From assembly GCF_001894825.1 (NCBI RefSeq), contig NZ_BCWY01000005.1, positions 124,001 through 188,000 on the forward strand: a stretch of DNA of 64,000 bases, in the 5' to 3' direction. Under the pieces are notes generated by a model, which made no database searches, was not told where the DNA came from, and saw nothing but the letters and a program-made list of their open reading frames with translations. Shown in pieces: positions 35,125 to 41,783 of this stretch. The stretch is from Rhodococcus jostii NBRC 16295. Its GTDB lineage: Bacteria > Actinomycetota > Actinomycetes > Mycobacteriales > Mycobacteriaceae. Position numbers and translations under genes: made by a program. Every line of letters starts with the position of its first letter. Within the stretch, counting starts at the first letter, position 1.

Positions 35125-35161
35125 CCGGATTTCGCCGGATCTCCGCTGTTAGGGTTCGTTG

Positions 35162-37132
35162 ATGGGTCCTGTGACGGGAATCGGAACAGCAATTCGGGCC
35201 TCGTTGGCCGCCGCTCTGTGCGTCGGCATGCTGGCCGCGTGCGCGTCGGACGAGGAGCCGCAGAGCGACCCCGCGGCCACGTGTGCGGACGTCCCCAACG
35301 GCACCCCGATCACCGCGGCGCCGCCGCCCCCCGGTCCGGCGCCGACCACCCAGAATCTCGCGACGAACCCGGAGATCGCGACCGGCTACCGCTCCGGGAT
35401 GACGCCCGTGGACACCGCGTCGTACGCGGTGTCCACCGCCAACCCGGTGTCGACGCAGGCCGCGTGCGAGGTGTTGCGGGACGGGGGAACGGCCGCCGAC
35501 GCGCTGATCGTGGCCCAGACGGTGCTGGGTCTCGTCGAACCGCAGTCCTCCGGAATCGGGGGCGGGGCGTTCCTGCTCTACTACGACGCGGGGCAGAACA
35601 GTGTCGAGGCATACGACGGGCGTGAGGTCGCGCCGATGGCCGCGACGGAGAACTACCTCCGCTGGATCAGCGACACGGACCGCACCGTGCCCCAGCCCGA
35701 CGCCCGCGCGAGTGGCAGGTCCATCGGTGTTCCCGGCGTCGTGCGGATGCTCGAGACGGCGCACCGGGACCACGGACGGGACGAATGGCGGGAACTGTTC
35801 GACCCGGCCATCTCACTCGCCGACCAGGGTCTCGAGATCAGCCCCCGGATGGCCGGGCAGATCGCCGAGTCCGCGCCCCACCTGGCCGTCGACGAGGCGT
35901 CGAAGGCGTACTTCCTGAATCCCGACGGCACTCCGAAGCCTGCCGGGACGAAGCTGACGAACCCGGCCATGGCCAAGACGCTGGGGGCGATCGCCGCGGG
36001 CGGCGCCGACGCATTCTACACCGGGGTCATCGCACAGGGCATCGTCGATGCGACGGCAACGGCGACGGGCGGTCGCACGCCCGGCCAGATCACTCTCGAC
36101 GACCTCGCCCACTACCAGGCGAAGAAGCGGACCCCGCTGTGCACGCCGTACCGGGACCACGAGATCTGCGGCATGCCGAACCCGTCGTCCGGTGGCACGG
36201 CGGTCGCGGCGACGCTGGGCATCCTGGAGAACTTCGACCTGTCGCAGTACGGGCCGACGAACCTCGACGACAACGGGGGAAAGCCGACAGCGGAGGCCGT
36301 GCACCTCATCTCCGAGGCGGAGCGCCTCGCGTACGCCGACCGGGACAAGTACGTCGCGGACTCGGATTTCGTTCCGCTGCCCGGCAATTCCATCGACACG
36401 CTGCTGAACGAGGACTACCTGAAGCAGCGGGCCGAGCTCATCGACCCCGGCAAGAGCATGGGCACTGCGCAACCCGGCAACTTCGGGCCCGTTCCGCTGG
36501 GGGTGCAACCGCAGGACAAGGAACACGGCACCAGTCAGATCTCGATCGCCGACACGTACGGCAACGTGGCGTCGATGACGACCACGGTGGAATCGGCGTT
36601 CGGGTCGTTCCATATGACGGACGGCTTCGTGCTCAACAATCAGCTCACCGACTTCTCGGCCCAGCCGGTCGGACCCGACGGGGCGCCGCTCGCCAACCGC
36701 GTCGAACCGGGTAAGCGTCCGCGTAGTTCGATGGCGCCGACCCTCGTCTTCGACCGCGGCAGCGACGGTTCGCGGGGCGACGTCCAGTACGCGACCGGTT
36801 CCCCGGGCGGTTCGGTGATCATCCAATTCGTCGTGAAAACACTGGTGAGCATGCTGGATTGGGGTCTGAACCCGCAGCAGGCCGTGTCGGCGGTCGACTT
36901 CGGGGCGGCGAACACCCCGGTCACCGGCGTCGGCGGGGAGCATCCGAACATCAATGCGGCCAACGACGGCGCCGACGACCCGCTGATCGTGCAACTCCGG
37001 GCGATGGGCCACCAGGTGTCGGTCGCCCCGCAGTCCAGTGGGCTCAGTGCGCTGCAACGCCAGGGTTCGGGGTGGGTCGGCGGCGCGGACCCGAGACGTG
37101 AGGGCGCGGTGATGGGTGACGGCACGGGTTGA
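35162..37132 (+). CDS. ggt: gamma-glutamyltransferase, lipoprotein form
   Basis: This 656-residue Ntn-hydrolase cleaves gamma-glutamyl bonds of glutathione-like peptides outside the membrane. A signal peptide ends in a lipobox (GMLAACAS). The precursor self-cleaves before the nucleophilic Thr in KEHGTSQISIAD (about residue 457), giving large and small subunits. Family motifs PNPSSGGTAVAATLG and GSPGGSVIIQFV are present. Actinobacteria make mycothiol rather than glutathione, so the substrate may be imported glutathione or other gamma-glutamyl compounds. Confidence 0.93.
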   Translation: MGPVTGIGTAIRASLAAALCVGMLAACASDEEPQSDPAATCADVPNGTPITAAPPPPGPAPTTQNLATNPEIATGYRSGMTPVDTASYAVSTANPVSTQAACEVLRDGGTAADALIVAQTVLGLVEPQSSGIGGGAFLLYYDAGQNSVEAYDGREVAPMAATENYLRWISDTDRTVPQPDARASGRSIGVPGVVRMLETAHRDHGRDEWRELFDPAISLADQGLEISPRMAGQIAESAPHLAVDEASKAYFLNPDGTPKPAGTKLTNPAMAKTLGAIAAGGADAFYTGVIAQGIVDATATATGGRTPGQITLDDLAHYQAKKRTPLCTPYRDHEICGMPNPSSGGTAVAATLGILENFDLSQYGPTNLDDNGGKPTAEAVHLISEAERLAYADRDKYVADSDFVPLPGNSIDTLLNEDYLKQRAELIDPGKSMGTAQPGNFGPVPLGVQPQDKEHGTSQISIADTYGNVASMTTTVESAFGSFHMTDGFVLNNQLTDFSAQPVGPDGAPLANRVEPGKRPRSSMAPTLVFDRGSDGSRGDVQYATGSPGGSVIIQFVVKTLVSMLDWGLNPQQAVSAVDFGAANTPVTGVGGEHPNINAANDGADDPLIVQLRAMGHQVSVAPQSSGLSALQRQGSGWVGGADPRREGAVMGDGTG

Positions 37133-37151: not shown

Positions 37152-38162
37152 TCACGCCTGTTCGAGGAGCGGGGCCACCTTGGTTCCGAGCAGTTCGATC
37201 GCGCGCATCACCTTGTCGTGGGGCAGCGGTCCGACGCTCGGGTGCAGCATGAACCGCTCGATGCCCAGAGTGTCGCGCATGCCGACGATCTTCTCGGCCA
37301 CCTGCTCGGGGTTGCCGAGCACCAGTGAGCCGCCGGGTCCGCGCAGACCGTCGAAGGCCTGCCGGTTCATCGGCGCCCACCCACGTTCGCGTCCGAGCCC
37401 GGTCATGGCCGCGGCGTACGACGGGTAGAACTCCGAGGCCGCCCGGTCCTCGCTGTCCGCGACGTAGCCGTGCGCGTGGACGGCGATGGGCTGCGGTGCG
37501 TGCCCGCCCTCCGACACCGCGCGCCGGTGCAGGTCGGCCAGCGGGGCGAAGCGCGCGGGTTCGCCACCGATGATCGCCAGCGCCATCGGCAGGCCGAGCA
37601 GTCCGGTGCGTGCCACGGATTCCGGGTTGCCGCCGACGCCCACCCAGACGGGAAGGGGGCGCTCGGGCCGCGGGTAGACGGACTGGTCGGTGAGAGCCGG
37701 CCGGTGACGCCCCGACCAGTTCACGGTCTCCGAGTCGCGGAGTGCGAGCAGCAGGCCGAGTTTCTCGACGAACAACTCGTCGTAGTCGGCGAGGTCGTAA
37801 CCGAAGAGCGGGAACGATTCGGTGAACGATCCGCGGCCGGCCATCACCTCGGCGCGCCCGTCGGAGATGAGGTCGAGGGTCGCGAACTCCTCGAACACCC
37901 GCACCGGGTCGTCCGAGCTCAGGACGGTGACCGCGCTGGTCAACGTGATGCGGGACGTGCGGGCGGCGGCGGCCGAGAGCACGACCGCGGGTGCCGACGC
38001 AGCGAAATCCGCGCGGTGGTGTTCGCCGACGCCGTACACGTCGAGCCCCACCTGCTCGGCGAGCACGACCTCCTCGAGCAGGTCCTTCAGACGCTGCCGC
38101 GGCGATACCGCCGCGGTTCCGCCGGAACCGACCTCGGCGAACGTCGTCAATCCGAGTTCCAT
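37152..38162 (-). CDS. LLM class flavin-dependent oxidoreductase
   Basis: This 336-residue luciferase-like monooxygenase (TIM barrel) probably uses reduced FMN or F420. The pattern VGEHHRADFAASAPAVVLSA and the C-terminal LGNPEQVAEKIVGM match the family. It starts at ATG 38162. A near-palindrome 20-36 bases upstream is nearly the same as the one upstream of pirin. It is divergent from the amine-ligase/amidohydrolase fusion gene. The substrate is unknown. Confidence 0.9.
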   Translation of the reverse strand: MELGLTTFAEVGSGGTAAVSPRQRLKDLLEEVVLAEQVGLDVYGVGEHHRADFAASAPAVVLSAAAARTSRITLTSAVTVLSSDDPVRVFEEFATLDLISDGRAEVMAGRGSFTESFPLFGYDLADYDELFVEKLGLLLALRDSETVNWSGRHRPALTDQSVYPRPERPLPVWVGVGGNPESVARTGLLGLPMALAIIGGEPARFAPLADLHRRAVSEGGHAPQPIAVHAHGYVADSEDRAASEFYPSYAAAMTGLGRERGWAPMNRQAFDGLRGPGGSLVLGNPEQVAEKIVGMRDTLGIERFMLHPSVGPLPHDKVMRAIELLGTKVAPLLEQA

Positions 38163-38365: not shown

Positions 38366-40750
38366 GTGCTCGCCAGCGGCCCGCGAAAAGTGGGCGTCGA
38401 GGAGGAGTTCCACCTCATCGATCTGAAGACCCGGCGCCTGACCACCCGCGCGCCGGAATTGCTGGCACGACTTCCCGACGACGCGTACGTCGACGAACTG
38501 CAGCAATGCGTCGTCGAGGTCAACAGTGGTGTGTACTCCGACCTCGGCGGTCTGCGGACCGATCTGGAGCGGCACCGCAGACTGCTCATCGACGAGGCCG
38601 CGGCACTCGGCATCGGCGTGGCGGCCGCCGGTTCGATGCCGCTGGCCCTGCCCGCGGAGATGCACGTGACCGGGTCGCAGCGGTACCGGCGGATGCTCGC
38701 GGACTATCAGGTGCTCGCCCGCGAGCAGTTGATCTGCGGCACACAGTTTCACGTCGACCTGCCCGACCGCGACGACGCCGTCCGGGTCGCCCACCGGGTC
38801 GCTCCCCACATGCCCGTGCTGTTGGCGCTCAGCGCGAGTTCCCCGTTCCGGTCCGACGGCTCGGACACCGGTTACGCCAGCGCGAGGACGCTGCTCTGGT
38901 TGCGCTGGCCCAGCACGGGACCGGCCGCGCCCGTCTCCACGGCCGCCGAGTACGACGGTCTTATCGACGACCTCGTCGCGAGTGGAGTGATCAGCGATCC
39001 CGGCATGGCCTATTTCGACGTCCGGCCGTCGGTGAAACTGCCGACCCTGGAGCTGCGGGTGTGCGACAGCTGTCCGCGCCTCGACACGGTCGTGCTCATC
39101 GCCGCACTGTTCCGTGCTCTCGTGGAACGCGAGGTGGCGGGGCTGCACGCCGGGAGGAATGGTGTCGAGGTCGTGCCGACGCTGACTCGTGCGGCGCTGT
39201 GGCGCGCCGCCCGGTCGGGTCTGGAGACGGACCTCGTCGACATGACGGTTCCACGGGCTCGGCCGGCGTCGGAGCTCGTCGACGACTTCGTGAATTCGCT
39301 GCGCCCACAACTCGAGGAGGCGGGCGACTGGAACACTGTGGCGGAGCTGGCCGCGGAGGCGGCCGCCCACGGCAGCTCCGCGGCACGGCAACGCCACGCA
39401 CTCGGTCGCCGGGGACGGCTCACCGACGTGGTCGACCTGCTGCTCGCGGAGACCGCCGGCCGCACCGAACACCTCCCGGAGGTGGAGGTGCCGCCGGCGC
39501 CGCGGGAGTCGGGTCCGACATCGACCGGCGCCGGCCGGACGCGAAGGTATTGGAGCGCCAGGTTCTGGGACCGCAGCGACACAGCCGACATGACGTGGAC
39601 GGACTCGACCGAGCTCGACGAGAAGAAGCTGATCGAGTGGCGCCGGGACCTGCACGCGCATCCGGAACTGTCGTTCGAGGAACGCCGGACTACCGGGATC
39701 GTGCGCGATCACCTGGTCGGTCTCGGCCTCGAACCCGTCCTGCTGCCCGGCGGCACCGGCCTGTGGTGCGACCTCGGGCCGGAGACGGGCGACCGCGTCG
39801 CATTGCGGGCCGACCTCGACGCGCTACCGGTCGCCGAGACGACGGGTCTGCCGTTCGAGTCGACGGTCCCCGGGGTGTCGCACGCGTGCGGTCACGACGC
39901 CCACACCACGATGCTGATGGGGGCGGCATCCGTCCTCGTGAAGTACCCGCCGCCGTCCCAGGTCCGGCTCATCTTCCAGCCCGCCGAGGAGACCACACCC
40001 GGCGGCTCCGTCGACACGATCGCCGCCGGCGCACTCGACGGGGTGTCGAAAATCTTTGCACTGCACTGCGACCCGCACCTCGAGGTCGGCAAACTCTCGA
40101 CGAGGACGGGGCCCATCACCTCGTCCAACGACTCCGTCACCGTGCGGTTGTGGTCCGCAGGCGGGCACACCGCCCGACCCCACCTGACCGGCGATCTGAT
40201 TCACGCCGCCGCGGTCCTGGTGACGGGACTGGCGTCCGTCCTCGACCGGCGGATCGATGCCCGCACCGCGACCGTCCTGACCTGGGGAAAGGTGGCCGCC
40301 GGGCAGGTCGCGAACTCCGTACCCGAATCGGGTGAGCTGGTCGGCACCCTGCGCAGCGCCTCCCGCGAGACGTGGGCCTCGCTCGAACCACTGGTCACGG
40401 AGACGATCTGTCACCTCCTCGCGCCGTACGACGTGCGGTACGAGCTCTCCTACCGGCAGGGCGTCCCACCCGTCGTCAACGATCCCGACTGCACCGCGGA
40501 CCTGCGGGAAGCGATCGAATCGGTGGTGGGATTCGATCATCTGGCCGAGGCCCAGCAGTCCAGCGGAGGCGAGGATTTCGCGTGGTACCTCGAGCGGGTT
40601 CCGGGGGCGATGGCGCGACTCGGCGTGTGGGACGGCACCGGACCCCATCAGGAACTGCACCAGCCGGCTTTCAACCTCGACGAACGCGCCATGATTCACG
40701 GGGTCCGGACCCTCGTCGCGCTCACCCGGCTCGAAGACCAGTCGGGCTGA
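38366..40750 (+). CDS. carboxylate-amine ligase (GCS2/YbdK) fused to M20 amidohydrolase
   Basis: This 794-residue protein fuses two enzymes. Residues 1-370 are a GCS2/YbdK glutamate-cysteine-ligase-like domain (VGVEEEFHLIDLKTRRL, ICGTQFHVDLPD), which makes a gamma-glutamyl or similar amide with ATP. Residues about 409-794 are an M20D amidohydrolase (WRRDLHAHPELSFEERRT, HACGHDAHTTMLMG, QPAEETTPGGS), a metal enzyme that cleaves N-acyl bonds. The linker is about 35 residues. An internal in-frame ATG at 39590 would allow separate translation of the second domain. The GTG start is chosen because the ligase N terminus MLASGPRKVGVEEEF begins there. The joining of a ligase with a hydrolase is unusual. 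Confidence 0.88.
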   Translation: MLASGPRKVGVEEEFHLIDLKTRRLTTRAPELLARLPDDAYVDELQQCVVEVNSGVYSDLGGLRTDLERHRRLLIDEAAALGIGVAAAGSMPLALPAEMHVTGSQRYRRMLADYQVLAREQLICGTQFHVDLPDRDDAVRVAHRVAPHMPVLLALSASSPFRSDGSDTGYASARTLLWLRWPSTGPAAPVSTAAEYDGLIDDLVASGVISDPGMAYFDVRPSVKLPTLELRVCDSCPRLDTVVLIAALFRALVEREVAGLHAGRNGVEVVPTLTRAALWRAARSGLETDLVDMTVPRARPASELVDDFVNSLRPQLEEAGDWNTVAELAAEAAAHGSSAARQRHALGRRGRLTDVVDLLLAETAGRTEHLPEVEVPPAPRESGPTSTGAGRTRRYWSARFWDRSDTADMTWTDSTELDEKKLIEWRRDLHAHPELSFEERRTTGIVRDHLVGLGLEPVLLPGGTGLWCDLGPETGDRVALRADLDALPVAETTGLPFESTVPGVSHACGHDAHTTMLMGAASVLVKYPPPSQVRLIFQPAEETTPGGSVDTIAAGALDGVSKIFALHCDPHLEVGKLSTRTGPITSSNDSVTVRLWSAGGHTARPHLTGDLIHAAAVLVTGLASVLDRRIDARTATVLTWGKVAAGQVANSVPESGELVGTLRSASRETWASLEPLVTETICHLLAPYDVRYELSYRQGVPPVVNDPDCTADLREAIESVVGFDHLAEAQQSSGGEDFAWYLERVPGAMARLGVWDGTGPHQELHQPAFNLDERAMIHGVRTLVALTRLEDQSG

Positions 40751-40758
40751 GCCCGGCG

Positions 40759-41769
40759 TCAGGCCGGCTTGGCGGCGGCCTCCGCCAGTTGCGGCACGAG
40801 CGCGTCGACCGCGTAGGGGAGGCTGAGGACGGTGCCCCAGGTGAGGGCTCCGGAGACGGTGGGGTCTTCGACGAACACGGCGCGACCGGCCCGGGCGACC
40901 GGCAGCGACTGATAGACCGGGTCGGCCGTGATCTTCGCTGCGGCATCGGGGCTGCTGCCGACATTCCAGACGAGGACGTCCACGTCGAGGATGTCGAGTT
41001 GCTCGGTGCTGATGGTGAACGCATCCAGGTCGCCCGCGAGTTGCGCGATCTGCTCGGGGACGACGAATCCGAGCGACGTCATCAGGCGTGAGCGCGGGTC
41101 GTTGGGGGACCGCACGTAGAACGAGCCGGCGTCCCCCAACTCCGCGACCGCGACCGTCTTGCCCTCGAACTCGGGGTGGGCGGCACGCTGCTCCGCCACC
41201 AGGGCGTCGACGTCCGCGACGAGTTGGTTCGCCTTCTCGTCCTCGCCGAGGGTGGTGCCGACGATGCGGACGGCGTCCTGCCACGGCATCCCGAAATCGG
41301 GGTAGTCGGGCGAGGTGGTGACCGTGGGCGCGATCGCCGAGAGCCGCTGATAGGCGTCGTCGTCGACGTCGATGTACAGCGCGAGGATCAGGTCGGGATC
41401 GAGTTTCGCGATGGCCTCGTACGCGAAGTTGGCCTCACCGGTGAACTGGCCGCGGTTGAAGACTTCGGGGTGCGTCCCGTCCAGCGCGTCCTGGGCCCAC
41501 GGCCAGGTGGCGTCCGGATAGTCGCCGTACCAGTCGGTGACACCGACCGGCTGACGACCGAACGAGAGGAGCGTGTCCTGGTCGGAATAGCCGACGGTCA
41601 CGATGCGCTGCGGGGCGTTCGGGACTTCCGTGGTCCCCTTCTTGTGCGTCACCGTCCGGGTGTCGCCGGCGGAGTCCGCGTCGGTGCCCGAGGAACACGC
41701 TGCGGCGAAAACGGCCAGGCCGACCCCGGCACTCACGGTCAGGAACTTGCGGCGGTCGAGCGTTCGCAT
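40759..41769 (-). CDS. iron-siderophore ABC transporter substrate-binding lipoprotein (Tat type)
   Basis: This 336-residue type III periplasmic-binding protein begins MRTLDRRKFLTVSAGVGLAV, with a twin-arginine motif and a lipobox Cys in AAACSS. It is probably exported folded and lipid-anchored. Family motifs include PQRIVTVGYSDQDTLLSFG and LDPDLILALYIDVDD. The ATG at 41769 is chosen over 41775 because CAGGGAGG then sits about seven bases away. An IdeR-type iron box lies directly upstream, so expression should rise under iron limitation. No permease or ATPase is adjacent, so this binding protein must share another system. Confidence 0.9.
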   Translation of the reverse strand: MRTLDRRKFLTVSAGVGLAVFAAACSSGTDADSAGDTRTVTHKKGTTEVPNAPQRIVTVGYSDQDTLLSFGRQPVGVTDWYGDYPDATWPWAQDALDGTHPEVFNRGQFTGEANFAYEAIAKLDPDLILALYIDVDDDAYQRLSAIAPTVTTSPDYPDFGMPWQDAVRIVGTTLGEDEKANQLVADVDALVAEQRAAHPEFEGKTVAVAELGDAGSFYVRSPNDPRSRLMTSLGFVVPEQIAQLAGDLDAFTISTEQLDILDVDVLVWNVGSSPDAAAKITADPVYQSLPVARAGRAVFVEDPTVSGALTWGTVLSLPYAVDALVPQLAEAAAKPA

Positions 41770-41783
41770 CCACATACCTCCCT

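Follow-up and report, generated by a model that had tools for sequence, protein, structure and literature searches.

One gene of Rhodococcus jostii NBRC 16295 encodes a GCS2/YbdK carboxylate-amine ligase and an M20D amidohydrolase in a single chain, a new architecture built from known enzyme families. Comparison with relatives gives good support to an origin of these domains from the two ends of an operon of the NAGGN (N-acetylglutaminylglutamine amide) type, and the fusion most likely arose through loss of the operon middle. The gene context tends to favour a role in making and turning over a single small solute. Taken together, an origin by operon collapse and a make-and-recycle role for one small solute represent, in our estimate, an even chance. 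The gene lies in a stretch of 64,000 nucleotides (the window), to which unprefixed coordinates refer, and has the following features.

38366..40750, plus strand: YbdK-M20D fusion gene, 794 aa, a single open frame with a GTG start at 38366 and a stop ending at 40750
38384..39457, plus strand: GCS2/YbdK carboxylate-amine ligase domain (aa 7-364; NF010041, 333.4 bits versus 332; TIGR02050; Foldseek)
38393..38407, plus strand: GhExE motif, GVEEE (aa 10-14), the Mg/ATP site of GCS2 ligases according to PMC2588565
39470..39610, plus strand: interdomain linker (aa 369-415), predicted disordered (pLDDT <50), changing faster than the domains between genera
39590..39592, plus strand: in-frame internal ATG 5' of the M20 domain, not conserved
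39629..40699, plus strand: M20D amidohydrolase domain (aa 422-778; TIGR01891; Foldseek 1ysj, 4ewt, 6slf)
39884..39904, plus strand: M20 motif ACGHDAH (aa 507-513), aligned to YxeP, presumably with a metal-ligand role
39980..39994, plus strand: M20 motif PAEET (aa 539-543), aligned to YxeP, which we take to hold the catalytic Glu
40058..40075, plus strand: M20 motif ALHCDP (aa 565-570), aligned to YxeP, presumably with a metal His
40652..40672, plus strand: M20 motif ELHQPAF (aa 763-769), aligned to YxeP, its His taken by us to bind metal

The initial annotation had read positions 38366-40750 as one open frame joining a ligase and an amidohydrolase; the coordinates were exact, and both classes scored above profile cut-offs. 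Pfam GCS2 (PF04107) matched aa 9-286 with 161.7 bits (cut-off 21), and the best stretch for Peptidase_M20 (PF01546) was aa 479-786 with 130.7 bits (cut-off 24.6). The NCBIfam models for YbdK (TIGR02050, 257.3 versus a cut-off of 176.4) and amidohydrolase (TIGR01891, 317.5 versus 153.75) were also passed. The protein fell below the equivalog cut-offs of the cyanobacterial-type glutamate-cysteine ligase GshA (TIGR02048, 36.9 bits versus 249.05) and of the M20D enzymes CpsA (274.4 versus 500) and DoeB2 (238.5 versus 550). A structure model with mean pLDDT of 77.7 and pTM of 0.50 displayed two folded domains flanking residues 369-415, with short weak stretches inside the domains at residues 182-186 and 488-505. 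By Foldseek, the ligase domain best matched 1r8g (TM-score 0.85 by target) and 1tt4, and the M20 domain best matched YxeP, its top fold match, together with 4ewt, ILL2 and N-alpha-acyl-glutamine aminoacylase. The N-terminal domain has the fold and GhExE motif of these YbdK/GCS2 ligases, whose two solved chains are only as long as one domain (372 and 396 residues), whereas the fusion carries an M20D in the same chain. Likewise, the C-terminal domain resembles YxeP (1ysj), ILL2 (1xmb) and the aminoacylase (6slf) in fold and motifs, but differs from the solved M20Ds in being joined to a ligase and in not reaching the CpsA and DoeB2 cut-offs. ACGHDAH, the EE pair and the His residues of ALHCDP and ELHQPAF align with YxeP, and active-site motifs are intact in both domains.

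A search of the genome with the fusion returned 13 matches, comprising the fusion itself and paralogues in which YbdK and M20 are separate, topped by an M20 at 58% identity. The common M20D paralogue of this genome (L080:1012-2640) neighbours a gene resembling gamma-glutamyl cyclotransferase (AIG2). An internal start yielding a separate M20D is possible in principle at the ATG at 39590, but this codon is not conserved. When ATG, GTG and TTG were sought in the Speluncibacter gene over the 45 codons leading up to the conserved WRRDLH, only a GTG, two codons ahead of it, was found. A promoter scan returned nothing, and terminator-like sites numbered 1 versus 0.6 expected.

The fusion is real and has long been kept by evolution. 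Of 28 genus genomes, counting the window's own, 10 had the whole frame (80-100% identity), and an eleventh (G016) had it split by contig ends; the remaining 17 had only an M20 paralogue at 56-61% (E <= 1e-60). Among the best 80 matches, the fusion occurred in R. opacus, R. koreensis, R. wratislaviensis (91%) and R. tibetensis (80%), and at 73% in Prescottella subtropica and Speluncibacter jeojiensis; G216 also carries it in an uninterrupted frame. Outside the genus it was found in two g10 genomes, Speluncibacter and one g27 genome with a broken N-terminus. The refuting case, in which orthologues are always separate or have a stop in the linker, did not hold: the fused state spans four genus groups (g1, g10, g25 and g27), and both domain trees favour one origin. 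Separate orthologues do exist, placed at either end of a single operon. The stretch 39500-39590, singled out for a check by the initial annotation, contains neither a missed stop nor a frameshift, and the frame is continuous through this region in all 10 whole-fusion genomes. The remark that making and cleaving an amide in one protein is odd was upheld. An artefact or missed stop is ruled out by the uninterrupted frame across genus genomes, Prescottella subtropica and Speluncibacter. A sequencing or assembly error has practically no likelihood, as the identical open frame recurs in independent assemblies and nothing at the fusion point speaks for one. The only broken frame is N-terminal, in Rhodococcus sp. 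JCM 9791 (L006/L118), where the fused core is present and the first ~82 residues lie in other frames, which may reflect sequencing error or decay. Immediately upstream of this copy is another YbdK (40%; L118:6029-7093).

Copies that had split again were not seen among the genus and other-genera loci examined, and none of 1101 plasmid records with a match aligned at any one place to 80% of the query. Across a phylum sample of 396 genomes, the fusion was found only in the window's own genome (E <= 1e-100), in a search that scored two candidates per genome and that weaker fusions may escape. Ligase matches of 53-55% in this sample lay in open frames of 950-988 aa (G501, G717, G791 and G726), which are perhaps the same ligase-ATP-grasp protein described below.

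Both fusion domains are under purifying selection. Between the window and eight near relatives, dN/dS was 0.116-0.155 for the ligase part and 0.060-0.093 for the M20 part; against other genera (L116, L117 and L019), values were 0.24-0.28 and 0.16-0.17, respectively. The linker gave 0.058-0.228 against the six nearest relatives, and thus is not free there. Its dN/dS was 0.37-0.42 against L004 and L115 and at least 0.59 against other genera, a rough figure given that the linker is short.

In relatives, these two domains open and close an operon with the order [YbdK-circularly permuted ATP-grasp]-[AsnO]-[S9 peptidase]-[M20D]. R. zopfii (L009/L127) instead carries its ligase in one chain with a circularly permuted ATP-grasp (PF14403, 417.3 bits), and AsnO, S9 peptidase and M20D come next. 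The L009 AsnO belongs to TIGR03104, N-acetylglutaminylglutamine amidotransferase, with 939.6 bits versus a cut-off of 570.1. We mapped 44 stretches (40 regions plus the window, L001, L004 and L019) and distinguished three arrangements: ligase with ATP-grasp (A), ligase without ATP-grasp (B), and fusion (C). Most of the 28 arrangement A loci also have AsnO and S9, which were not found at L106, L113 and L114; L111 stops within AsnO and L096 soon after S9. M20D lies behind S9 in six of the 28 (L110, L126, L127, L128, L129 and L133), and the operon can thus do without the hydrolase. At these six loci the ligase and M20D at the operon ends are 66-75% identical to the fusion, and the YbdK-circularly permuted ATP-grasp stands in the place of Ngg (for example, L127:5593-13041). 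Arrangement B comprises eight loci. Seven (L119-L125, all g10) have AsnO, S9 and M20D and no ATP-grasp, and the eighth (L134) is without M20D. In L120, L122 and L123 the ligase is followed by a short stump matching the ATP-grasp C-terminus, SLRGG(G)GKDTW, which indicates that pieces of the operon do get excised. AsnO, S9 and M20D of L120 (also L021) are each split by frame breaks, perhaps sequencing indels. M20D begins at the S9 stop, overlapping it or coming right after it, in four of 12 operon loci examined (L126-L129), and within tens of bases of it in the other eight. A Corynebacterium MAG (L057) also has an M20D behind S9, which sits on a long branch apart from the M20 group of operon and fusion.

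Phylogenies of both domains favour a single origin of the fusion, with moderate support from the M20 side. The 13 fused rows formed one group in a 44-row ligase tree (96/93) and in a 25-row M20 tree (93/88, below the star threshold); these trees left out ligase fragments of <280 residues, M20 fragments of <300 residues and M20 matches of <=55% identity. Several independent fusions are unsupported, the fused rows being one group in both trees. A smaller M20 tree with paralogues placed seven fused rows together (98/93) and united operon and fused M20Ds (94/99) to the exclusion of the common paralogue. The smaller trees left out fragments of <270 residues; in them L118_6029 (label C) and L133_1212 (label A) are other YbdK or M20 copies at those loci, and the long rows, among them L137_3794, L133_1212, L057_5238 and L081_1504, are of unsure placement. 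Full-length ligase-ATP-grasp frames occurred in at least 14 genus codes of a family sample of 401 genomes, with two candidates scored per genome, which makes loss of the operon middle simpler than insertion into a fusion. The direction of change would then run from operon to fusion. Flanks of fusion and operon differ, with two exceptions: near L127 an FMO matches in part, and near L110 a binding protein matches at 36%. With flanks unmatched, the deletion is deduced from gene order and trees, and not from a preserved site.

Like the NAGGN operon, which comprises asnO-ngg and a peptidase, the relatives of the window cluster AsnO, a ligase and peptidases. Unlike the asnO-ngg operon, they use the YbdK-circularly permuted ATP-grasp, and Ngg (TIGR03103) was above cut-off in none of 15 genomes (14 with operon or remnant plus the window's own); one weak partial match was seen, in G072. 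The 'Ngg' of a Frankia asnO cluster is reported to be <15% identical to known Ngg (PMC5563000), the peptidase of the NAGGN cluster is proposed to balance the pool (PMC5563000), and a Micromonospora is described as making NAGGN, with asnO and ngg named there (PMC8146288). Judged from the AsnO family model, the operon product would be of NAGGN type. That the parent operon is an unrecognised NAGGN-type pathway, with the YbdK-circularly permuted ATP-grasp replacing Ngg and the fusion as its collapsed make-and-break remnant, is a possibility that we put forward tentatively. Titles and abstract openings in the literature yielded none that we recognised as describing this fusion or the parent operon, and no paper was found containing both 'carboxylate-amine ligase' and 'N-acetylglutaminylglutamine'.

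Unlike NAGGN systems, the window's genome has no AsnO above cut-off. This was true of all 28 genus genomes, including the 10 with whole fusions, and weaker amidotransferase matches were present in 10 of the 28. In a chosen set of 11 genomes, AsnO was above cut-off in none of six fusion genomes and in five of five operon genomes. The two sets, which share G009 and G024, combined gave none of 14 fusion genomes. G258, one of the 14, is 75% complete, and G016, also used for the absence of AsnO, is 74% complete. With neither ATP-grasp nor AsnO, the product of the fusion cannot be NAGGN itself.

We propose that the first and last catalytic domains of the actinobacterial operon were put in one frame when ATP-grasp, AsnO and S9 were lost, most likely once, in an ancestor, and that the fusion would afterwards have been inherited or spread across several genera. 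The YbdK domain may activate a glutamate-type carboxylate with ATP and couple an amine to it, so that a glutamyl dipeptide-like amide forms. Tethered flexibly, the M20D domain would cleave the N-acyl or amide bond of the same compound or of its breakdown product. One and the same small solute, a glutamyl or N-acyl compound, would be produced by the ligase and recycled by the hydrolase, and a single protein would set its pool, much as the synthetase and hydrolase genes would in the parent operon. PafA and Dop are likewise a make-and-break pair (PMC7947786) with a GCS2-like ligase, PafA being described as GCS2-like in PMC2588565. Those are two homologous enzymes acting on a protein tag, whereas the hydrolase of the fusion is an unrelated M20 in the same chain.

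Different members of the two families are also paired independently. At 13 Nocardiopsidaceae loci (L020, L022-L031, L033 and L036), a different YbdK (31-33%) directly precedes a different M20D (47-50%) as separate genes, and the YbdKs of the four loci included in trees lie far from the fused ones. An adenosine deaminase gene stands behind the pair at L033. This pairing suggests that YbdK and M20D are useful to each other, and it argues against the view that a neutral deletion joined them by chance, each domain being kept for its own use with no common substrate. Chance joining would account for the long disordered linker, fast-changing between genera, and for the whole-model pTM of 0.50. The fusion persists, however, in 10 whole genus copies and beyond the genus, and none of the copies examined has split again; this also weighs against chance joining, which we consider unlikely. 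The same pairing fits an acyl exchange, in which M20D would deacylate an N-acyl amino compound and YbdK would add gamma-glutamyl to the freed amine, by transamidation or in successive steps. The nearest solved M20Ds in fold and sequence include YxeP and N-alpha-acyl-glutamine aminoacylase, both of which free amines from N-acyl amino acids. However, M20D is the final gene of the parent operon, downstream of another peptidase, an order at least as compatible with turnover, and acyl exchange seems to us rather doubtful.

Two genes upstream of the fusion offer a further reading; both are listed as neighbours, with no membership implied.

35159..37132, plus strand: gamma-glutamyltransferase with a lipoprotein-like signal (by eye)
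37152..38162, minus strand: divergent luciferase-like monooxygenase (TIGR03858)

A gamma-glutamyl- or cysteine-conjugate pathway would unite these enzymes with the fusion. The gamma-glutamyltransferase adjoins the fusion in all 10 whole-fusion genus genomes (L079 and L087-L095), and YxeP, the top fold match, acts in N-acetyl-cysteine-conjugate breakdown beside a flavin monooxygenase. The luciferase-like gene, however, adjoins the fusion in only five of the 10 (L079, L088, L089, L091 and L094), and neither neighbour was found near the fusion at L116, L117, L118 and L019, outside the group. Such a pathway is very improbable. The luciferase-like gene does lie divergently next door, as the initial annotation had it, but a functional tie to it is unsupported, and that annotation as a whole is borne out in part. 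A PF01497 binding protein gene (iron-siderophore type) also adjoins the fusion, in the window (40759-41775) and at L116 (7647-8738), in differing orientations.

Synthesis and recycling of one solute by a protein derived from an operon is the reading we prefer, and the fusion provides a clear example of two operon ends turned into one gene. Retention of ligase and hydrolase in one chain hints at a common metabolite, and the source operon narrows the candidates to NAGGN-like solutes. Moreover, the YbdK-circularly permuted ATP-grasp protein is a candidate to fill the role of Ngg in Actinobacteria without being homologous to it. On the more tentative reading that a whole osmolyte operon collapsed into one make-and-break protein, the fusion would be a self-regulating synthetase-hydrolase controlling how much of a glutamyl dipeptide-like solute is present.
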